From the IMG/VR virus record IMGVR_UViG_3300038548_000082, positions 1-30,888 of that record: 30,888 nucleotides of DNA; one strand, given 5' to 3'. The notes below the pieces were generated by a model. The model saw only the letters and a program-made list of their open reading frames with translations. It searched no databases and had not been told where the DNA came from. Positions 1,409 through 13,301 of the stretch are shown piece by piece. The position numbers were made by a program, and so were the translations under genes. Every line of letters starts with the position of its first letter. The first letter of the stretch is position 1. This DNA is from a virus.

Positions 1409-2093
1409 TGACTCAACCTGTTGAGCCTCACGTTAAAAACTCCGTGAATTCAGGGGAAGTCCAGAACGGACAATCCTGAGCCTAGCTTAACCTGCGAAGG
1501 TTTTGAAGGTGCAACGACTAGGATATACCAGCTCTATGAGTTGATGAAATCCGTAGGGATCAAGTGGTCTCGAAGCGCGGAGAACTTCGTAAGAAGTTAT
1601 GATATAGTCTGGACTGCATAGGAATATGTAGAAGTGCAAAGTACATTTCATAGGGAAAATTTATGAGACAATGTACTGACTGTAAACTTCATCTACCTAG
1701 TAAAGATTTTGCTTGGAGAGGTGGAGCGAGAAAAGGATTGCAAGCAACATGTAAACCTTGTTCTCTAGAACGATTAAGAAAACACAGAGCCTACACAAGA
1801 AAATTAGTAGGTAGATGGAAAATGTGGAAAGGTTGTAATGCTTGTGGGTTTAAAGCTAGGCATTCGTGTCAATTAGATTTAGATCACAGGGATACCTCAA
1901 CCAAATCAAGTAAAGCTAATGGTAGGGCTTTTGAACCTTCTTGGAGTCTGAAAAGAATCAAAGAGGAGCTTTCAAAGTGTGATGTTCTTTGTAAGAATTG
2001 TCATGCTTTAAAAACCTACATAAATAAAGATTATTTGAAAACTTAAACGTACTTTGCACTGGCAATGAGTAACGACCATTGTTGAACATAACG
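1409..2093 (+). ncRNA. Group I self-splicing intron in the ribonucleotide reductase gene
   Basis: Removing these 685 bases joins NPCG to EQPLP in frame and restores the reductase active site. The exon ends in U (1408) and the intron ends in G (2093), as group I introns require. Exon bases CGUGUGGU (1401-1408) pair with intron bases GCCUCACG (1425-1432), giving P1 with the expected U-G wobble at the splice site and one U-U mismatch. A core-like GCAACGACTA at 1511-1520 has GACTA pairing with TAGTC at 1605-1609, which I read as P7. An HNH gene lies after P7', in the P9 region. Splice sites are inferred from these pairings and from the protein; I did not compute a full fold. Confidence 0.9.
1663..2046 (+). 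CDS. Intron-encoded HNH homing endonuclease
   Basis: A 127-residue protein with an N-terminal zinc ribbon (CTDC near residue 4, CKPC near residue 31) and a C-terminal HNH nuclease domain with CNACGF, LDLDHRD and CDVLCKNCHALK. Such proteins cut intron-less alleles near the insertion site so that the intron is copied in. It lies wholly within the group I intron, downstream of the P7' strand, a usual site for such genes. Eleven of its twelve arginine codons are AGA or AGG, unlike the CGT-rich replication genes nearby, which suggests acquisition. Upstream translation signals are weak (only TAGGGAAAA), so expression is probably low or dependent on transcript structure. Confidence 0.88.
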   Translation: MRQCTDCKLHLPSKDFAWRGGARKGLQATCKPCSLERLRKHRAYTRKLVGRWKMWKGCNACGFKARHSCQLDLDHRDTSTKSSKANGRAFEPSWSLKRIKEELSKCDVLCKNCHALKTYINKDYLKT

Positions 2094-3020
2094 GAACAGC
2101 CCTTGCCCGCTGGTGGTGCTTGTTTGTTAGGCAGCTGGAACTTGGTCAAGTATATCTTCACTGATTCTGATGGAAACCGTTTCTTCGGTATGGAGCAGTT
2201 TAAGGCAGACATCCCTCATATTGTAAGGGCTATGGATAACATTCATGATATGGCTATTTTCCCCCTACCAATTCAAGCGGAAGAAAGCCGTTTAAAGCGT
2301 AGAATGGGTTTAGGCTTGACAGGTGTTGCTAACGCTGGGGAATCCTTAGGGTTTACCTACGGTTCTCCTGAGTTCCTTGAATGGTATGAAGAGGTGTTGC
2401 AAATCTATACCAATGAGACGTATAGTGCTTCCTCCGACCTAGCATTGGAAAAGGGTTCTTTCCCTCTCTTTGATGCTGATAAGTATTGTGAGAGTGTTTT
2501 TATTAAGACTCTTCCTACTTGGTTGCAAGAGAAGATTAGAACTCAAGGTATTCGTAATAGCCACTTGCTAAGTATGGCACCAACTGGTACAATCAGTCTA
2601 ACAGCTGATAACATTAGTGGTGGAATTGAGCCAGTGTTTAGTCATTACTATGATCGAACAATCAAAACCTATGAAGGGGAGAAAGTTGAACGGGTAACTG
2701 ACTACGCTTATGGTACTTGGGGAGTTAAAGGTAAGACTGCTAATGAGTGTACTGCTAAAGAACACCTTGATGTACTTGCTCTTTCTACCCATTACGTAGA
2801 CTCAGCAGTCTCTAAGACTATCAACGTATCACCAGATATGCCTTGGGATGAATTTAAAAGTATCTACATCGATGCATTTAAACTTGGTTGTAAAGGATGT
2901 ACCACCTTTAACCTTGGTGGTAAACGTTTTGGAATCATGAATGAAGTTAAGGAAGACGAACCGGAAGAAGCTAAGGCTTGTTACATTGATTTGCAGACTG
3001 GTCAAAAAGAATGTAGTTAA
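2094..3020 (+). CDS. nrdJ: Ribonucleotide reductase, class II-type, exon 2
   Basis: Exon 2 encodes 308 residues starting EQPLPAGGACLLGS, the direct continuation of NPCG in reductases. The TTG at 2079 is in intron sequence and is not a real start. Visible family features are RRMGLGLTG, MAPTGTISLTADNISGGIEP (the PTGT substrate loop) and the C-terminal ACYIDLQTGQKEC, whose cysteine pair is placed as in class II enzymes that use it to re-reduce the active site. The Glu of the C-x-E catalytic pair is the first codon of this exon, so the enzyme depends fully on splicing. A terminator-like hairpin follows the stop. Confidence 0.88.
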   Translation, partial: EQPLPAGGACLLGSWNLVKYIFTDSDGNRFFGMEQFKADIPHIVRAMDNIHDMAIFPLPIQAEESRLKRRMGLGLTGVANAGESLGFTYGSPEFLEWYEEVLQIYTNETYSASSDLALEKGSFPLFDADKYCESVFIKTLPTWLQEKIRTQGIRNSHLLSMAPTGTISLTADNISGGIEPVFSHYYDRTIKTYEGEKVERVTDYAYGTWGVKGKTANECTAKEHLDVLALSTHYVDSAVSKTINVSPDMPWDEFKSIYIDAFKLGCKGCTTFNLGGKRFGIMNEVKEDEPEEAKACYIDLQTGQKECS

Positions 3021-3082: not shown

Positions 3083-3757
3083 ATGTTAGATCCAACAATG
3101 TTAGTACCAGCAGCATTCGGTTTTGTGGGTGTGTTGTTATGTGGTGTTATGGACCGTTTGCGTGGTGATAAGAAGACTATCATTAGCCGATTATTTGAGA
3201 AGGTCTTCCTAGGGGTATTAGTCGGAGCGTTAGCAGGCTTATCTTGGTGGGGTATAGCAACCTTTGTACCTTTCTTTGCAATCGCTATGTCAATCTCTTG
3301 GAGCGTCATGGGCAGCTACCTATCAGGAAGTCAACTTCAATGGGGACGATTAGAATGGTGGCAGGGTAATCCTGAGAAATTGAATGCTAAGATTCCATTC
3401 TTAAAAATTAACGAATACAATCCGTGGAGTATGTATTTGATACTAGCTGGCCCTTGGACTTCAGTATTAATTAGGGCAGGTCTGTCTTTCTTAGCTATCA
3501 TCCCTGTGGCGTTTTGTCCAACAGTGGGTGCAGTTGCAGGAGTAGGTTTAGCAGGAGTAGTGTCAGGTTCTTTCTTACTCTCCCTTTGGGTAGTTAAGAA
3601 GTACTTCAAAGCTGATAGTAAGTTTTGGTTACTAGTTAACACGCTTAACTTCGGAGAGCGTCAAGAGGTACGTGCTTGGGGTACTACAGAGATAGTCCGA
3701 GGTATGATGATGGGTGCTGGTGCAATCTTGATTTATTTATTCTTAAAAAGTTATTGA
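3083..3757 (+). CDS. Multi-pass membrane protein of unknown function
   Basis: A 224-residue protein that I do not recognise. Hydrophobic stretches are near residues 6-22, 41-60, 62-80, 117-137, 139-170 and 203-222, suggesting about six membrane segments. A polar middle part (about residues 83-114, with WGRLEWWQGNPEK) and a positively charged segment before the last helix separate them. The gene has its own promoter, overlapping the preceding terminator, and the leader ends in ACAGGAG before the ATG. It stands alone between two promoters, so it is expressed as a single-gene unit. A role at the host inner membrane is implied, but no function can be given. Confidence 0.75.
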   Translation: MLDPTMLVPAAFGFVGVLLCGVMDRLRGDKKTIISRLFEKVFLGVLVGALAGLSWWGIATFVPFFAIAMSISWSVMGSYLSGSQLQWGRLEWWQGNPEKLNAKIPFLKINEYNPWSMYLILAGPWTSVLIRAGLSFLAIIPVAFCPTVGAVAGVGLAGVVSGSFLLSLWVVKKYFKADSKFWLLVNTLNFGERQEVRAWGTTEIVRGMMMGAGAILIYLFLKSY

Positions 3758-3814: not shown

Positions 3815-4126
3815 ATGTTGGAATCAGATTTTGAAGAGGTACAATTCTTACTGAAGTTGAAGAAGAAGTTAACCGCGCAAGCAAAGAAATGCAGAGAGCT
3901 TAAAACTGTTTATGACAACCATGTTGATTCTGGTGGTTACGAGAACTTCAACAAAGGTTGTTCAAACTACATCCACACCAATTATGATGGTAGTGGTAGT
4001 GGTGTAGATCTATCAGGTTGTTACCTTGGTGAACAAGTAGCATCAGCTGTTGAACAGATTATCTACCTTCAGTTGGAAGACGTAAGCACACGATTAAAAG
4101 CTTTGAAAGTTACTGAAGAAGAATAG
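3815..4126 (+). CDS. Small hypothetical protein
   Basis: A 103-residue protein that I do not recognise. The N-terminal 35 residues are rich in Lys, Glu and Leu (FLLKLKKKLTAQAKK) and probably form a helix or coiled coil. The middle has a Gly- and Ser-rich loop (YDGSGSGVDLSG), and a second helix ends the protein. GAGGGAGA precedes the ATG with good spacing, and the gene has its own promoter with an 8-bp inverted repeat. A structured non-coding stretch and two tRNA genes follow. Confidence 0.65.
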   Translation: MLESDFEEVQFLLKLKKKLTAQAKKCRELKTVYDNHVDSGGYENFNKGCSNYIHTNYDGSGSGVDLSGCYLGEQVASAVEQIIYLQLEDVSTRLKALKVTEEE

Positions 4127-4129
4127 AAT

Positions 4130-4369
4130 TTGTGTTGTGTACATGAGGCCAGATAAGAAGCACTGGCAGGAAGCTCCTTGCATGAAGCGCAAGTGTGGAG
4201 TGGCGAACAAAGGCTAGGGAAGTCACGACTCCTGCACAAACGTGACTGAAATAGGTGTCCACCGGGCTACTCTACCCGGCTGTAAGGGCCTACTCAGTGA
4301 CCCCCGTGGAGTAAGGGGACGATTGTTGGATATCAGGGTTGATTAGTGTAGGGAGGTAGGTCGATGCCC
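4130..4369 (+). ncRNA. Candidate structured RNA upstream of the tRNA genes
   Basis: About 240 bases hold no credible reading frame. They contain strong short inverted repeats: GCCAG 4148-4152 with CTGGC 4163-4167; GTCACG 4222-4227 with CGTGAC 4241-4246; CCGGG 4262-4266 with CCCGG 4275-4279; and a CCCC/GGGG pair near 4300-4318. G and C content is higher than in the flanking genes, as in stable RNAs. It may be a phage non-coding RNA co-transcribed with the tRNAs, or a decayed tRNA cluster. It does not match the RNase P, tmRNA or 6S RNA features I know. No terminator separates it from the tRNAs. Confidence 0.45.
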
Positions 4370-4591: not shown

Positions 4592-4993
4592 ATGGAACTG
4601 TTAGAAAGAATCAAAGAAGATCGAACAGCAGCACGGAAAGGTACTAGTGCTGTAGATAAAATACGTGCCACACTCCTAACTACGTTAGTTGGTGAAGCTG
4701 AGACAGCCCTTAAAGGTAAACAGGCTAAGAAATTTGATATGTTGGCTCTTGTTAAAAAGTTCCAGAGTAATTGTCATGAAACTCTTGCCATTAAATTTGA
4801 TGAAAAGATTCATATAGAGATTTGTCTTCTTCAAGAATATATTCCAGAACAGTTGACAGAGATAGAACTTTGTGAGAAACTAGTTGAATCGGGTGCAAGC
4901 AACATAGGTCAGTTCATGGGATACCTTAATAAGAGTTATAAAGGTTTGTTCGATGGGAAGCTTGCAGCTAAAGTTGCTAAAACTAACTTGTAA
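4592..4993 (+). CDS. GatB/YqeY domain-like protein
   Basis: A 133-residue protein resembling YqeY: an N-terminal helical part (LLERIKEDRTAARKG), a central LLQEYIPEQLTEIEL that matches the conserved YLPxQLSExEL of the family, and a C-terminal IGQFMGYLNKSYKGLFDGKLAAKV that matches the MGxVM...GxxDG end. YqeY resembles the tail domain of GatB, which contacts tRNA in the amidotransferase that makes Gln-tRNA. Its cellular role is not well known. Standing directly after two tRNA genes and before an RNA ligase, a tRNA-linked role is a fair inference. It is shorter than typical YqeY (about 147 residues). ACGGAGGA precedes the ATG. Confidence 0.75.
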   Translation: MELLERIKEDRTAARKGTSAVDKIRATLLTTLVGEAETALKGKQAKKFDMLALVKKFQSNCHETLAIKFDEKIHIEICLLQEYIPEQLTEIELCEKLVESGASNIGQFMGYLNKSYKGLFDGKLAAKVAKTNL

Positions 4994-5004
4994 GGAGATA
5001 CTAG

Positions 5005-5994
5005 ATGGAATTCAAAAAGTATAATAGTCTTGAGAACGTTAAACAGAAGTTGGTAACCGTTATTGAAAACCACGGTTATGCCAACGAGCTTTATGTTGTT
5101 ACTGAGAAGGTCCACGGAGCTAACTTCGGTATCCACTTTGATGTCGATAACAACGACCTTAAGTTTAGTCGCCGGAAAGACTTCCTTGGGGAGACTGAAA
5201 ACTTTTATGGCTACACAGCTATGCTTACTGAGTTCCGAGAAGCTATGGCTTGGATCAGCTCCACAGTAGAGGTAAAAGAAATCCGAATCTTCGGTGAACT
5301 CTTCGGAGGTTCTTTAAACGGACAACAAGGTGATCACGCTAAGTGCGTACAAAGTGAAGTTCAATACAGCCCTAACAACGAGTTCATGGCTTTTGAGCTA
5401 CATTTGGATGGTATCCCTCAACCTTTCAACGTTATGGCTAGCATCTTAAGGGATGCAGGTTTAAAAGTTGTTCCTGTCTTAGGTATGGCTGACAATATCT
5501 ATGACGCATTGAAGTTTGTTAATGACGATAACTCTGTTGTACCTCAGATACTAGGTTACGAAAGCCCTGAAGTAAATATTAAGGAGGGTAATGTAATTGT
5601 ACCAGCTGGTAAGGTTCTTTACTTTGGAAATGGTAAACGTGTTGCTATCAAAGATAAGAACCGTAAGTTCAAAGAAAGCGATAACGAGAAGGTTATCACT
5701 AAGCCTGTGGACTTATCTGAGCAGGGTGAGGTAGTGTTGGCAGCTGTTAACGCTAACTTAACAACTAACCGTTTGTCTAATGTCTTGTCAAAAGAATCTG
5801 TAGAGGGCTTGACAGGTAAAGACTTCGGGCGTATTATGGGTCTTCTTATGCAAGATGCGCTAGCTGAGTACTCTGATGAGTTCACACTAAGTGCCAAGGA
5901 AGTAGCGGGTGAAGAATGGCCTCTGGTGAGTAAAGCACTCATCCGTGAAGCTACAACTTTAACTCGTACTTATTTTATTGAGAATATATTTTAG
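5005..5994 (+). CDS. RNA ligase, T4 Rnl2 (gp24.1) family
   Basis: A 329-residue protein, close to T4 Rnl2 (334). Nucleotidyltransferase motif I, EKVHGANF, puts the nucleophile at Lys35, the same number as in T4 Rnl2. Motif III is RIFGELFGG, motif IIIa is FMAFELHLD, and motif V is VAIKDKNRKF near residue 220. The enzyme forms ligase-AMP and seals 3'-OH/5'-phosphate RNA nicks. The polynucleotide kinase/phosphatase at 29613 would prepare such ends, giving a T4-like repair path for tRNAs cut by host nucleases. The tRNA genes lie just upstream. AAGGAGA precedes the ATG. A perfectly spaced TTGACA-N17-TATTAT (5809-5837) lies within the gene. Confidence 0.9.
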   Translation: MEFKKYNSLENVKQKLVTVIENHGYANELYVVTEKVHGANFGIHFDVDNNDLKFSRRKDFLGETENFYGYTAMLTEFREAMAWISSTVEVKEIRIFGELFGGSLNGQQGDHAKCVQSEVQYSPNNEFMAFELHLDGIPQPFNVMASILRDAGLKVVPVLGMADNIYDALKFVNDDNSVVPQILGYESPEVNIKEGNVIVPAGKVLYFGNGKRVAIKDKNRKFKESDNEKVITKPVDLSEQGEVVLAAVNANLTTNRLSNVLSKESVEGLTGKDFGRIMGLLMQDALAEYSDEFTLSAKEVAGEEWPLVSKALIREATTLTRTYFIENIF

Positions 5995-6990: not shown

Positions 6991-8904
6991 ATGGCTAGAA
7001 AGAAGTTTAAAGAAAAAGAAAGAGGTATTTTCCAAGGACACTGTGCTTGTGTTTTAAAGGAGTGTTTATCCACAGATGCGGGATCATTTTATCTCCATCA
7101 GGATGGAAGTTATTCGTACTACTGCCATTCATGTCACGGGTCTGCGGTTGATTTCGACCCTGAAACAGCAGAAATTATAGATTTTTCAAAGAGACGTGAA
7201 ATCAATTGGGAAGAAGAACAGGAGAAGCTAGAATATGTCAGAGACGACCTCATCCCGGTGGACAACCCCGATAGACGACTCAGGGCTGATGTCTATGAAT
7301 ACTATGGTTGCAGGATGGAAACGGCTAGCGATGGAACTAAAATCGAAGCTATATACTATCCCTCATATCGAGGAGGCGATCACAAGGGCTATCGCAATAG
7401 AAAGAGATTCCAAGGTTGGCATAAGCAAGTAAAGAAGAAGCCAGAACTGTTAGGTGTGCTTAAAGACTTCACAGGAGGTATTGGTGATACCCAAAAAGGT
7501 ATTGACATGTTTGGACAGTGGCTCTTTCCAGCAGGAGGTAAGAGAATCATCATCAACTGTGGTGAAGAGGATGCCTTGACTGTTTGGAAGCTCACAGAGA
7601 TGAAGACAAAGTTTGAAGGTGGTTATCCATCTATCTCTTGTCCATCTGGTGAAAACATAGCATGGGTTAAACCCCATATTAAATATCTTGGTAGTTTCAG
7701 TGAGATTTATATCATTGCAGATCAAGATAAAGCTGGTGCTAAATTCGAAGAAGATCTTTGTAAGATCCTTCCAGTAGGTAAAGTACGAGTCGTGAAGCTT
7801 CCTAGGGGTTATAAAGATCCTTCTAAGATGGTTCAGACCATAGGAATGAAGAAAGCTGCTGATATTCTCTGGAAAGCTATCTGGGACGCTGAGAAGTACT
7901 CTCCTGCGGGGATTATGAGTTTATCTGAAGGATGGGGTCAGTATCGACAACGTGGTCAGGACACGCTTATACGCTTCCCTGAGAGCTTTGGGGATTTAAA
8001 CCATAAAACACATGGTGGCTATGCGTTAGGAGAGATTGTAAATATCATTGCTCCCTCTTCTGTTGGTAAGTCATCCTTTGTTAAGGAAATGATCTACTCA
8101 GCACTAGAGTCTACTAATTATAAGATCGGGGTAATCTCATTAGAAGAGACTATCGATGAGTTTATTGAAGGTATCTTGTCAGTGCATATGAGTACTCAGC
8201 TTAACGAGATCTCTTATGATATGCGTGATTGGGATACTGAAGAAAAAGCTTTCAAAGACTTAGTAAGCCTTAAACCAACAGGGATCAAAGAAGAAGATTT
8301 AGAGCTTGACGAAGATGATAGTGAGCGTGTACAATTCTTAGACCATCAAGGTTCTGTTACTGGGGATGAACTCCTTGAGAAGATAGACTTCTTGGTTAAA
8401 GGTTTGGACTGTAAGATTATTATCGTTGATCCTGTAACGTTAGCGTTCTGTGGTCACGATACTGATGAAGATGATATGGCTTCTGAGATTGTCAAGAGAG
8501 TTAAACGGCATAAACTGGGTTGGATCAATGTACACCATGTTCGTAAGAATGGTAATGGTGGTACAGCTAACTCTGAAGGTGCTGACTTGGCAGAAGAAGA
8601 CATTAAAGGTACAGGTGCTTGGTTCCAAACTGGAATGATCAATCTAATCTTTACTCGTAACAAGGTTCATGACAATACTATCGTGCGTAACACCACTAAG
8701 ATTAAGATGTCTAAGTGTCGTAGGCATGGTAAGAACACTGGTACAGCTGGTTACATCTATTACAATGGTGATAACGGTAGGTTGGAACAGGGTATTAGTC
8801 CTGAGGAAGTCTTGAGTGCGCTGGATGAGGATGGGGAATCTGATAAAGATGTTCCTCTAAATTCTTTCGGAGCTGATGAGAAAGGTAAAGTAGAAACTTG
8901 GTAA
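6991..8904 (+). CDS. T7 gp4-like primase-helicase
   Basis: A 637-residue bifunctional protein. An N-terminal zinc ribbon has Cys at about residues 18, 20, 25, 45 and 48 (CHSCHG). A TOPRIM primase core follows, with CGEEDAL near residue 190 and IIADQDKAG near 241. The C-terminal RecA/DnaB-type helicase has Walker A APSSVGKSS near residue 355, GVISLEE, Walker B KIIIVDP near 475, VHHVRK, and GTGAWFQTGMINLIFTRN near the arginine-finger region. It should unwind DNA at the fork and make primers. Length is above T7 gp4 (566). The gene starts 5 bases after the dNMP kinase stop with weak translation signals, suggesting coupling. A promoter follows its stop. Confidence 0.93.
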   Translation: MARKKFKEKERGIFQGHCACVLKECLSTDAGSFYLHQDGSYSYYCHSCHGSAVDFDPETAEIIDFSKRREINWEEEQEKLEYVRDDLIPVDNPDRRLRADVYEYYGCRMETASDGTKIEAIYYPSYRGGDHKGYRNRKRFQGWHKQVKKKPELLGVLKDFTGGIGDTQKGIDMFGQWLFPAGGKRIIINCGEEDALTVWKLTEMKTKFEGGYPSISCPSGENIAWVKPHIKYLGSFSEIYIIADQDKAGAKFEEDLCKILPVGKVRVVKLPRGYKDPSKMVQTIGMKKAADILWKAIWDAEKYSPAGIMSLSEGWGQYRQRGQDTLIRFPESFGDLNHKTHGGYALGEIVNIIAPSSVGKSSFVKEMIYSALESTNYKIGVISLEETIDEFIEGILSVHMSTQLNEISYDMRDWDTEEKAFKDLVSLKPTGIKEEDLELDEDDSERVQFLDHQGSVTGDELLEKIDFLVKGLDCKIIIVDPVTLAFCGHDTDEDDMASEIVKRVKRHKLGWINVHHVRKNGNGGTANSEGADLAEEDIKGTGAWFQTGMINLIFTRNKVHDNTIVRNTTKIKMSKCRRHGKNTGTAGYIYYNGDNGRLEQGISPEEVLSALDEDGESDKDVPLNSFGADEKGKVETW

Positions 8905-9476: not shown

Positions 9477-9505
9477 TTGACAGTTAGTAGGAACCTCTAT
9501 ATACT
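9477..9505 (+). promoter_or_regulatory. Consensus sigma70 promoter TTGACA-N17-TATACT for the non-coding region
   Basis: The -35 box is 9477-9482 and the -10 box 9500-9505, one base off the full consensus. TGACAGT (9478-9484) and ACTGTCA (9503-9509) form a 7-bp inverted repeat that spans the promoter. No gene follows for 750 bases, so the transcript starting near 9512 should be a non-coding RNA. Confidence 0.8.
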
Positions 9506-9511
9506 GTCATT

Positions 9512-10169
9512 TCGAGTTGAGAGGAAGCACTAACGCTTCTGGCTCAAAAGTCAAGTTTAACAAACCTCTGGCGATGAAAAGGCAGGGAGAGGTAAGGCAA
9601 CCACACCCTCTTCTTGTAGACGAGGCTCCCCGATGCTTTCGAGGCATATAAAGGGCGTCTGAGGGTGATGAAGTACCTCTTAAATAACCATCAGGAGTGA
9701 GAGTCTCAAGACAAGCCAAGCGCACCCTTGAGGTAACCGTTCAAAGCGGCTAGAAGCTGTGGGGTAACCACCCCCATAAGCTATCTAGGGTAGATTGGAG
9801 GCATTCAATCAGACCTACGGTTCAGAGCCGACACTTAACATAGAAGGGCGCTATTCAATCAAATGTCCACAACACAGATTGATTGTTACGTTAGTGGTTA
9901 AACTCCCCGCCGAAACGGGGAACGTTGGTTCGACTCCAACACATACTTGAGGGGAGCTTAGCGGCAAACCTCAGACAATCTGAAAGTCCAAGGGAAGTAC
10001 ACCCCTTGGCAATTGAGTTCCCCTACACTCACTTAGCAAGTAGGGGTCTGCTGTAAGAGGACTCCTTACAAGTGACTTGGGAGGAACGTTAAGAATCCTA
10101 TGAAAGAGTCACATTATACCCTTGTTAAGACCGTGATAATTAAGCGGAGCACTGGCAAGGGCCTTTTTT
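9512..10169 (+). ncRNA. Candidate large structured non-coding RNA (about 660 nt)
   Basis: No credible reading frame exists here, but a near-consensus promoter opens the stretch and a T6 tail closes it. Paired arms are dense: GAAGC/GCTTC 9524-9539; a bulged stem 9750-9788 (CTAG, AGCT, GGGG with partners); TGAGG 9948-9952 with CCTCA 9969-9973; CCAAGGG 9988-9994 with CCCTTGG 10003-10009; CCCCTAC 10020-10026 with GTAGGGG 10040-10046; GTAAG 10053-10057 with CTTAC 10065-10069; CCCTTG 10119-10124 with CAAGGG 10156-10161. At 9890-9940 there are D-like, anticodon-like and T-like arms without an acceptor stem. Size, structure and setting recall the giant phage-linked RNAs GOLLD and ROOL, but membership is unproven. 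Confidence 0.6.
10154..10169 (+). terminator. Intrinsic terminator of the non-coding transcript
   Basis: GGC (10154-10156) and GCC (10161-10163), or the longer-range CCCTTG/CAAGGG pair (10119-10124 with 10156-10161), stand before six T at 10164-10169. The long-range pair would couple termination to folding of the RNA. Confidence 0.6.
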
Positions 10170-10261: not shown

Positions 10262-10948
10262 ATGAGAAAGTGTTTAAGATGTGAGGCCCAGATTCCAGAC
10301 AGCGCACATGGTTTGCGTAAGTTCTGTGGGAAAGTTTGCCAAATTGCAGACGGGACAAGAACCCAACGTAGTAAGTTAACGAATGAAAGCGAGAAGGGTT
10401 GTAATTACTGTAAAGCAATTATCCCACCCCACGCACATGGGCAACGTCAGTTCTGTGATGATAACTGTAAGGATAAGTTCAATAAAGAGAAAATCTACAA
10501 AGGACGGGAAGCAAGAACCTGCAAGCAGTGCGAGAAACCTATCCCTGTAGAAGCACACCACAACGTAAAACATTGTAGCAAGACTTGTAGGTTGCAATTC
10601 TTTTACCATAAAAAGAGAGACAACAGACCAGAAAAGATAATGCTTGATGCTGCCAGAAGTAGGGCTAAAAAAGGGGGTTACCCCTGTACAATTAATGAGG
10701 AGGACATAATCATACCCTCCCATTGTTGCGTACTAGGGCTTAAACTTGAGAGCCAAAGAGATGTACAATGTAGGGCGGCACATAACAGTCCTTCCTTGGA
10801 TAAAATCGTACCCAGTGAAGGGTATGTTAAGGGTAACATAAGGGTGATATCACAAAGAGCTAACGCACTTAAAAGCGATGCTACTTTTGAAGAAATGGAG
10901 GCATTATATAATGATTTTAGACAGCTCAGAGAGGACTCTTGTATTTGA
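10262..10948 (+). CDS. His-Me finger (HNH/endonuclease VII-like) endonuclease with three zinc ribbons
   Basis: A 228-residue protein. Three tandem zinc units of the form CxxC-(12-16)-CxxxC lie at about residues 4-26, 44-68 and 89-112; each has an IP...AH stretch between the Cys pairs. The C-terminal nuclease part has ARSRAKKGG, HCCVLGLKL, NSPSLDKIVPSEGYVKGNIRVIS and RANALKSDATFEE, the pattern of a widespread phage His-Me finger nuclease group. It is likely a mobile homing endonuclease with DNA-binding zinc repeats. It has its own promoter and its last 38 bases overlap the DNA polymerase start at 10911, so it is wedged between the RNA gene and the polymerase. Confidence 0.8.
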   Translation: MRKCLRCEAQIPDSAHGLRKFCGKVCQIADGTRTQRSKLTNESEKGCNYCKAIIPPHAHGQRQFCDDNCKDKFNKEKIYKGREARTCKQCEKPIPVEAHHNVKHCSKTCRLQFFYHKKRDNRPEKIMLDAARSRAKKGGYPCTINEEDIIIPSHCCVLGLKLESQRDVQCRAAHNSPSLDKIVPSEGYVKGNIRVISQRANALKSDATFEEMEALYNDFRQLREDSCI

Positions 10949-13301
10949 TTGTGAAGCGAACGGGTTGCTCCACAACGTAACAAGGATGTGGTGTGTAGTT
11001 TGTGAGGACTACGACACAGGGGAATTGTTTTTATTTCACGATTTTCCTCAGTATGATAACTACACTGGGTTAGATGATGAAGGAAAGGAGTTTACTTTAC
11101 CCGTGAGAAACGGCACTCTTAAAGACGGGGTATTGTTCCTTCATCGAGCACAAAGTTTAGTGGCACATAACTGCATTGGCTATGACCTTTTCTTACTTAA
11201 AATGTTCTACCCCAAGTTTAGAATCAGATATAGCTATCCTGAAATCAGAGACACATTACTTGAAAGTCAAGTGCTTTGGTATGATAGGAAACCTGTTAAA
11301 GGTTACAAAGGTATTCACGGCTTAGCAGTATGGGGAGCAAGGTTAGGTATTCGCAAGCCAGAGATTGAAGATTGGTCTTTTATGGATGCACAGAAGCTTC
11401 ACCGTTGTTTGGAAGATGTCAAGATTAACACTGCGGTTGCAAAACAACTTGACACCGAGAAACAATGGCTGTATGATAACTGCAACGGTATTGAATTTGA
11501 TGAAGCTCTGGAGACAGAGAATGAGTATCGATACTGGTCAACCATACAAGAACTTAACGGAGCCTTAGTAGATGCACCCCACATGAGAGAGTGTTGTGTG
11601 GAGCTTGATGTGCTTCTCGAAGCGTTGAGAGTTGAAATCGAGCCTATGCTTCCACCATCGATTAATGTGAAGTCTGTTAGAGCGTCTTCTCATGAGGTTG
11701 CTACCTTAGTTGGCTCTAGGGTTATACCTAAAGAGAGAGCAGTGTGGAAGACAAAGAAAGGGGAAAGCTACCAAAGCATTGTTAAAACAATGTACAAACC
11801 AACCATGAGAGTCTTTAAAGTTTCTAAACAGAAAATGTATGCAGTTGTCATTGATGGAGAGGAGGTTAAAGGGCATGAGTTCCCGAAAGTTAAAGAAGCG
11901 CGTGAGTGGACAAAGGAGAACTATCCTGCGGTTAAAGGGATTAAGTACCCTTGGGTTGAAGTCGAATCAACAGAGTATGACAGACACACAAAAAACCACT
12001 TCGGAGACGAGCTTGACGGAAATACAGAAGTTGTAGGACCGTACACGAAGATTGAATTTGAAAAGTCCCGTATGTCTCAACACGAGAAAGTTAAACTACT
12101 CTTAGTTACGCTCGGTTGGCAGACAGACGAATGGACTTTCAGAAAGGATTCAGAAGGTCAGTTCATACGAGCTGAAGAAAGTGGTATCGTTTATTGGCCT
12201 GAGAAGCCCATACAAGGTAAACAGTTGAGTGAGAAGTATAAAAAGGGGGATAGGCTACCAGCCACTCCAAAAGTTACTAAAGATTCTTTTCACTGGTTAC
12301 CTGAAGGGTTTGGACAGAAAATAAAAGAGTACAATACGTACTCACATCGGCGTAAATTCATCGAGAACCCTGCCAAGGATGACAAAGGGTTGCTCAATAA
12401 TATACGCGATGATGGTCGTGTAAGCTGTGGCTTAATGACCTTTGGCACCACTGCTGGTCGTGCTGCCCAATATGGTTGGGTAAACGCTCCGAGTGTGCAA
12501 GCCTTGTATGGTGAGAACATCAGGAAGATTATTATAGCTCCTGAAGGTTCGAAGCTGATTGGTATTGATATGCCTAGTGCTCACCCACGGTTGCTAGCAG
12601 ACTTTACGCAGAATGAAATGTTCATAGCAGCAGTTGATGGAAAGGAGGAGGATGAGGATGGAAACTATGTCGGAGAAGATTTCCACACAGTCAACAGTGT
12701 GTTGTTCCGACTTAACACTAATGAAGATGTTGTCTATTGTAGAGAGTCACAGGCTCACGATGACAGAAGATCAGGTGTTGATGCAGGGCGTAAGAAAGGT
12801 AAGGGAGGCTCTTATTGCACACTCTATGGAGGTTCCGATAAGAAGCTTGCACTCACCTTGGGAATCGCTGAGAAGCTTGGGGCTGAGCTTAAAAAGTCCT
12901 TCCTCAGCGGCCTTGGCCTTGACTTGTTGTTAGAAGAGGTAAGTAGCACTTGGAAGAAACAGAAGCGTGATAAAGGTTCTTATATCTCGGTTCTTGGTGG
13001 CTACCACGCTTGGAGTAATTCTAAGCATAAAATTATTAACTTTAAAGCTTTGGGTTCTGAAGCAGTAGTACAGAAAAGAGCAGTCATCTTGTTATGCAGG
13101 AAGTTTAGAGATATGAATCTCAAATCAAAATTAATCCTGAACATTCATGATGAAGTTCTTTTGGAAGTACCTGATGAAGAAGTCGAAATTGTAAAACCTA
13201 TTGCTGCTCGTATGTATGTCGAAGCAGCACTTGAACTTGGCTTGACGCTTGATTGGATCTCTACCGCTAAGGTTGGAATCGATTATGCTAAGTGCCACTA
13301 G
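10911..13301 (+). CDS. Family A DNA polymerase (T7-like) with 3'-5' exonuclease
   Basis: The ATG at 10911 is preferred over 10878 because it gives a T7-like N-terminus with exonuclease motif I at once (D13, E15 in FDCEANG) and has TGGAGG upstream. Exo II is HNCIGYDLF and exo III is CLEDVKIN. Polymerase motif B reads R-x3-K-x3-Y-x3-YG with the Tyr of T7 type, and motif C is HDE at 746-748. Motif A is odd: D553 is kept, but the Glu of the usual DxSxLE is His558 (IDMPSAHPRLL). The product has 796 residues against 704 in T7. Extra sequence falls in the thumb region and includes a segment (323-360) also found in the exonuclease at 14484. Confidence 0.93.
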   Translation: MILDSSERTLVFDCEANGLLHNVTRMWCVVCEDYDTGELFLFHDFPQYDNYTGLDDEGKEFTLPVRNGTLKDGVLFLHRAQSLVAHNCIGYDLFLLKMFYPKFRIRYSYPEIRDTLLESQVLWYDRKPVKGYKGIHGLAVWGARLGIRKPEIEDWSFMDAQKLHRCLEDVKINTAVAKQLDTEKQWLYDNCNGIEFDEALETENEYRYWSTIQELNGALVDAPHMRECCVELDVLLEALRVEIEPMLPPSINVKSVRASSHEVATLVGSRVIPKERAVWKTKKGESYQSIVKTMYKPTMRVFKVSKQKMYAVVIDGEEVKGHEFPKVKEAREWTKENYPAVKGIKYPWVEVESTEYDRHTKNHFGDELDGNTEVVGPYTKIEFEKSRMSQHEKVKLLLVTLGWQTDEWTFRKDSEGQFIRAEESGIVYWPEKPIQGKQLSEKYKKGDRLPATPKVTKDSFHWLPEGFGQKIKEYNTYSHRRKFIENPAKDDKGLLNNIRDDGRVSCGLMTFGTTAGRAAQYGWVNAPSVQALYGENIRKIIIAPEGSKLIGIDMPSAHPRLLADFTQNEMFIAAVDGKEEDEDGNYVGEDFHTVNSVLFRLNTNEDVVYCRESQAHDDRRSGVDAGRKKGKGGSYCTLYGGSDKKLALTLGIAEKLGAELKKSFLSGLGLDLLLEEVSSTWKKQKRDKGSYISVLGGYHAWSNSKHKIINFKALGSEAVVQKRAVILLCRKFRDMNLKSKLILNIHDEVLLEVPDEEVEIVKPIAARMYVEAALELGLTLDWISTAKVGIDYAKCH

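Follow-up and report, generated by a model that had tools for sequence, protein, structure and literature searches.

What is a stretch of about 660 bases without a credible gene doing in a viral genome that is otherwise almost wholly coding? The question is posed by positions 9477-10169 of the window—the whole 30,888-nucleotide stretch of DNA analysed here, taken from a virus record of 94,888 bases (IMGVR_UViG_3300038548_000082). Simple ORF coverage amounts to 92% of the window, in keeping with the near-complete coding density claimed for it, and the other gaps of more than 150 nt in the window are a group I intron, two tRNAs, and one 196-nt stretch. The intron (1359-1631) splits nrdA, the gene for the ribonucleotide reductase large subunit, into ORFs 566-1411 and 2079-3020, which match consecutive stretches of phrog_84. 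An RNA ligase gene (phrog_548) lies at 5005-5994; such genes are typical of phages that repair cut tRNAs. The neighbours of the region are as follows.

6991-8904, primase-helicase, followed by two small genes and then by the RNA region
10262-10948, HNH-type endonuclease, directly 3' of the RNA region
10878-13301, family A DNA polymerase

Helicase and polymerase adjoin each other in the Aeromonas, Shewanella, and Pseudoalteromonas J2-1 phages with related polymerases, and likewise in the viral contigs L080, L081, and L085; the helicase/polymerase junction in the window's group is an accessory island. At 2547-5354 of L203, a relative of the primase-helicase takes up 2.8 kb rather than 1.9 kb, which would fit an interrupting intron or insert.

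Is the region a transcription unit of its own? Two signals enclose it.

9477-9505, plus strand, promoter TTGACA-N17-TATACT, with a predicted transcription start near 9512
10164-10169, plus strand, T6 tract of the terminator, read from the sequence

The near-consensus promoter of the original prediction is the best sigma-70-type match of the 30.9-kb window and the only one there that fits TTGACA-N17-TATAMT without a mismatch, and promoters of this class are enriched in the window (22 matches with at most two mismatches, where 8.0 are expected). At the other end, the last stem indeed forms the base of the terminator—CCCTTG at 10119-10124 pairs with CAAGGG at 10156-10161 and is followed by CC and T6—and because its loop is 31 nt long, the terminator (10119-10169) is not listed by a simple terminator scan. 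The claim that no credible gene lies between these signals also stood: a 72-aa minus-strand ORF belongs to no Pfam family found, and the longest plus-strand ORF within the region is a TTG ORF of 51 aa.

Is the same unit carried by other viruses? Three homologues were found in IMG/VR (L005, L063, and L004), all of them short contigs from one metagenome (IMG/VR 3300037587), with the RNA on the same strand and in the same primase-helicase/DNA polymerase A slot. L005 and L004 were reached via relatives of the window polymerase, and L063, whose polymerase is 68% identical, via a shared pattern of the P3 hairpin described below. The non-coding match to the window covers 265 nt at 66% identity in L005 (E 7e-20) and 137 nt at 73% in L004 (E 1e-14). 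A terminator-like end and an element that is either a tRNA or tRNA-like are present in every homologue, and promoter-like sequences stand at the corresponding site in L005 (TTGACA-N17-TAAACT) and L004 (TTGACA-N17-TATGAT); a long reading frame common to the homologues was not found. Transcription of the RNA is predicted from these promoter and terminator signals, which recur in the homologues.

The downstream neighbour bears on two alternative explanations. Under the first, the region would be a cis-acting leader or attenuator of the next gene, the HNH endonuclease or the DNA polymerase; the RNA does lie upstream of both, in the same direction, yet it has a terminator-like stem of its own and the next gene varies—the polymerase follows in L004 and L005, an HNH-type gene in the window—and we consider this highly improbable. 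Most improbable of all is that the RNA is the partner of the HNH endonuclease, as a HEARO/IsrB-like guide or homing element. The HNH gene at 10262-10948 directly follows the window RNA, and L063 has an ORF at the matching position; however, L004 and L005 carry the RNA without an adjoining HNH gene, a further relative (L006) carries the HNH gene without the RNA, and HEARO went unmatched in the Rfam search, so that a HEARO or other HNH-associated RNA was rejected. The slot that the RNA has in relatives is occupied in L006 (3480-4160) by a short-repeat array of AGTTCAGTGTAGT-like and AACCTAGTTCTAAGCC units.

What, then, does the RNA look like? The minimum free energy of the region is -218 kcal/mol (z -5.2 with 20 shuffles and -3.8 with 40), and shuffle z-scores range from -2.2 to -5.2; together with covariation in the homologues, this places the stems that had been visible by eye beyond chance. 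To the elements first listed can be added a tRNA-like domain (9875-9982) and two probable pseudoknots. The parts of the window RNA are given below.

9512-9620, plus strand, 5' module A, several local stems, found in the window copy only
9624-9697, plus strand, module B, with a hairpin (9633-9647) and a probable H-type pseudoknot
9661-9664 with 9676-9679 (GAGG/CCTC) and 9666-9670 with 9689-9693 (TGATG/CATCA), plus strand, pairs of the module B pseudoknot
9737-9749, plus strand, hairpin with a T-loop-like UUCAAAG
9750-9754 with 9784-9788, plus strand, closing stem CTAGA/TCTAG of the variable domain, 5/5 closing pairs covarying
9787-9872, plus strand, module C, with covarying hairpins (9793-9810, 9818-9830, 9840-9854) and a second, probable pseudoknot
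9846-9850 with 9864-9868, plus strand, putative module C pseudoknot, loop GGGCG with TGTCC
9875-9982, plus strand, degenerate tRNA-like domain with closing stem CAGATTG/CAATCTG, common to the window and L004
9988-10009, plus strand, local hairpin CCAAGGG/CCCTTGG, without conservation in L005 and L063
10016-10169, plus strand, 3' module, present in all four members
10020-10046, 10052-10070, and 10072-10077 with 10107-10112, plus strand, helices P2, P3, and P4 of the 3' module
10082-10099 and 10119-10124 with 10156-10161, plus strand, helices P5 and P6 (the terminator stem) of the 3' module

The order in the window is thus A, B, variable domain, C, tRNA-like domain, and 3' module. In place of module A the homologues have a 10-bp leader hairpin, common to all three, and a tRNA or tRNA-like domain: L005 runs leader, tRNA, B, short variable domain, C, 3' module; L063 follows the same order with a further T-arm inside the variable domain; and L004 runs leader, tRNA-like domain, 3' module, without modules B and C. 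Modules B and C are therefore common to three members, and the 3' module to all four. The P5 loop contains UUAAGA in every member, which in L004 and L063 lies within a palindrome of 6 nt (CUUAAG); UUAAGA occurs again in the internal loop of the terminator; this is only a hint that the motif could mediate contact between RNA copies.

Support for these helices comes from how the members vary. Over 13 helices, with the arms placed by eye, a member's own arms pair at 214/215 positions and arms swapped between members at 381/516, and two-sided changes occur at 32 positions. The 3' module alignment, in which the window sequence is shifted by one column across P4-P6, is 84% paired and at most 47% paired when slid, and its covariation score was matched in 3/500 shuffles. 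Module C is 100% paired, with a score reached in 0/500 shuffles; module B is likewise 100% paired, varies little, and has a score reached in 19/500. The module B pseudoknot (GAGG/CCUC and UGAYG/CRUCA) has one covarying pair, and that of module C, RGRC in the loop of the last hairpin with a downstream GUCY, pairs in 3/3 members with one clear covarying position. These counts come from three or four sequences; for the helices they make strong evidence, and for the two H-type pseudoknots suggestive evidence. The P2 and P3 loops were also considered for a kissing contact, which was rejected because it fails in some members. The search for homologues thus turned up covarying stems and no conserved protein frame, and because three related viral fragments keep the shape while the letters change, we take the region to be a real RNA gene—very probably the non-coding gene of a new structured RNA family, as judged from sequence comparison.

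Could it belong to a family already described? Rfam holds the GOLLD, ROOL, OLE, HEARO, and intron families. We searched Rfam 15 by cmscan, at curated thresholds and permissively with E up to 10: at curated thresholds the region has no match, and the permissive matches (miRNA, snoRNA, and similar) were judged chance. The homologues gave only tRNA, two short matches to the tmRNA T-arm, and one chance miRNA match. The GOLLD and ROOL covariance models match neither the window RNA nor its homologues, and the OLE model does not match the region; a group I intron was rejected for 9477-10169, the model matching in the window only at the nrdA intron (1359-1631). ARAGORN found no tmRNA, matches to the tmRNA model are confined to the T-arm (11-13 bits), and tRNA-like ends joined to a tag-encoding frame, which define a tmRNA, are not seen. 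The window RNA resembles tmRNA in having a tRNA-like part inside a pseudoknotted RNA and differs in that its T-arm is internal to the chain rather than 3'-terminal. The suspected new class, in a setting like that of GOLLD and ROOL, is supported: the RNA has no Rfam match, and its homologues have covarying stems.

The members differ in their tRNA connection: the slot holds tRNA-Pro, tRNA-Gln, or a degenerate tRNA-like domain, which is either fused into the predicted transcript or stands at its beginning. In L005 a tRNA-Pro (UGG) lies immediately 5' of module B with a few bases between, in L063 module B begins directly after a tRNA-Gln (UUG), and in L004 the degenerate unit is immediately 5' of the 3' module. 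Window and L004 share, in their tRNA-like domains, the closing stem CAGATYG/CRATCTG, with one covarying pair; GAAAGTCC follows the stem. In the window the domain comprises a D-arm-like stretch, an anticodon-like hairpin with a 6-nt loop, and a canonical T-arm (9924-9940). Neither ARAGORN nor Rfam calls a tRNA at 9875-9982, and a canonical tRNA was rejected, since the loop has 6 nt and the T-arm is separated from the closing stem by 35 additional nt. The stretch is 75% identical over 63 nt to a tRNA-model match in another phage (L003, 2971-3032). That match, in Alicyclobacillus phage KKP_3916 (2968-3037, 48 bits, unannotated in the record), is likened to the domain of the window RNA because it too has a 6-nt anticodon loop. 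Separately, L007 has an accessory island upstream of a related polymerase with several non-coding pieces (3534-3704, about 3953-4200, and about 4720-4790), each with a T-arm at its end; a long acceptor-like stem is present in at least one of them, and inserts of about 100-170 nt replace the D and anticodon arms.

Two further readings give the tRNA part the leading role. The main rival is that the RNA is a tRNA mimic or decoy, whose T-arm and tRNA-like domain would bind a host factor for tRNA handling or defence (for example RNase P or a nuclease that cuts tRNAs) while the remaining RNA presents them. A tRNA or tRNA-like unit in 4/4 members, the extra T-arm in the variable domain of L063, and the RNA ligase gene of the phage, of a kind typical of cut-tRNA repair, all speak for it; but the tRNA part differs between members in type and place while B, C, and the 3' module persist, and L005 and L063 carry ordinary-looking tRNAs and no decoy, and we hold this role to be unlikely. 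The other reading makes the RNA a long structured trailer of a tRNA operon, with no role beyond aiding tRNA maturation or termination. Module B follows the tRNA directly in L063 and after a few bases in L005, as a trailer would, yet the window unit, without an intact tRNA, keeps all modules and their covariation, which makes this distinctly unlikely.

How widely is the RNA distributed? The family is narrow, with four members, three of them from one metagenome. Searching related phage genomes and related loci with models of B, C, and the 3' module brought no additional member to light; nor was the RNA found in those phages of Aeromonas, Shewanella, Vibrio, and Pseudoalteromonas that have a related polymerase, and no plasmid match was found. 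The close relatives L079 (helicase 82% identical) and L089 are without it, and since relatives as close as L079 lack the RNA, we regard it as accessory. One outlier of the P2-P3 element was convincing on sequence: near 133102-133134 of Pseudoalteromonas phage J2-1_QLiu-2017 (MF988720.1), 30/33 bases are identical to P2-P3 (blastn E 7e-4 with a 56-nt query), with a 7-bp P2 stem and a P3 hairpin of identical sequence. Unlike the window RNA, this double hairpin has no P4-P6, B, or C; it sits in a tRNA cluster, in about 73 nt between tRNA-Gly and tRNA-Ser, and the two-hairpin element therefore also stands alone in such a cluster.

Other candidates were set aside. A pattern of the terminator internal loop returned 52 stretches, of which only L004 and L005 are real (L008 is the same contig), and the P3 pattern in 84,980 genomes returned 41, many in one ribosomal-protein-like frame and 0 with the neighbouring helices. 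L059, L061, and L062 were judged chance. L060 was rejected as a member: it was motif-selected, and its 17.9 bits equal the score of a false match in a coding gene of phage PhAER-3. On the reverse strand of this 97.8-kb viral contig (near 730-960 and 1240-2050, counted on the reverse complement), some 1.5 kb surrounding a tRNA-Met lacks a clear gene; it includes a P3-like hairpin beside the tRNA and two tRNA-like ends (acceptor, T-arm, CCA) that contain long inserts, and is possibly another unlisted phage RNA.

Which known RNAs does the family most resemble? The GOLLD cage is a homo-14-mer, and the ROOL cage a homo-octamer. GOLLD is a large phage RNA of unknown function, often near tRNAs, with a conserved 3' region, a variable 5' region, and self-complementary loops; ROOL is about 660 nt long, phage-borne, and near tRNA islands, with several pseudoknots and a variable linker; both form RNA-only cages with the variable linker inside and self-complementary loops between chains (PMC12286853). 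The present family is likewise phage-borne and tRNA-linked, with a variable insert site and probable pseudoknots. As in GOLLD, a 3' module is constant (4/4 members) and the 5' part, with its tRNA or tRNA-like unit, varies; unlike GOLLD, it is 310-660 nt rather than >800 nt long, differs in sequence, and is narrowly distributed. Long untranslated transcripts for which the GOLLD/ROOL comparison has been made include the abundant ~800-nt ncRNA of ICP1 and the lncRNAs of phage K (PMC7567579, PMC9241854); neither phage matched the window RNA in our searches of the phage collection.

We therefore return to the preferred explanation—a free-standing non-coding RNA gene of about 650 nt, of a new family, made in infection and acting in the manner of GOLLD and ROOL—which as a whole we consider moderately probable. 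The phage would make the RNA during infection, and the RNA would work untranslated; the tRNA part may mark ends for processing or serve as a folded cassette, and the large, ornate RNA may scaffold itself by loop-loop contacts between copies, as GOLLD and ROOL do. The GOLLD/ROOL-like mode of working, drawn by analogy, is put forward tentatively: self-association is only suggested by the loop sequence, and a member without B and C (L004) suits a cage-forming RNA poorly. That the family might be a third kind of phage RNA particle beside GOLLD and ROOL—modular, self-associating, and pseudoknotted, with a slot for exchangeable tRNA cassettes and a P2-P3 element also mobile alone among the tRNA clusters of further phages—is a more speculative reading, and a somewhat unlikely one.

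The family fits among the large tRNA-linked phage RNAs of unknown function, and belongs to no catalogued family. Its members would be new natural variants with the outward traits of GOLLD and ROOL—smaller, modular, and with swappable tRNA parts—that reveal which part is constant (the 3' module), which are dispensable (B and C), and what the variable slot can hold. The family thereby offers a concrete test of whether large phage RNAs share a job tied to tRNAs.
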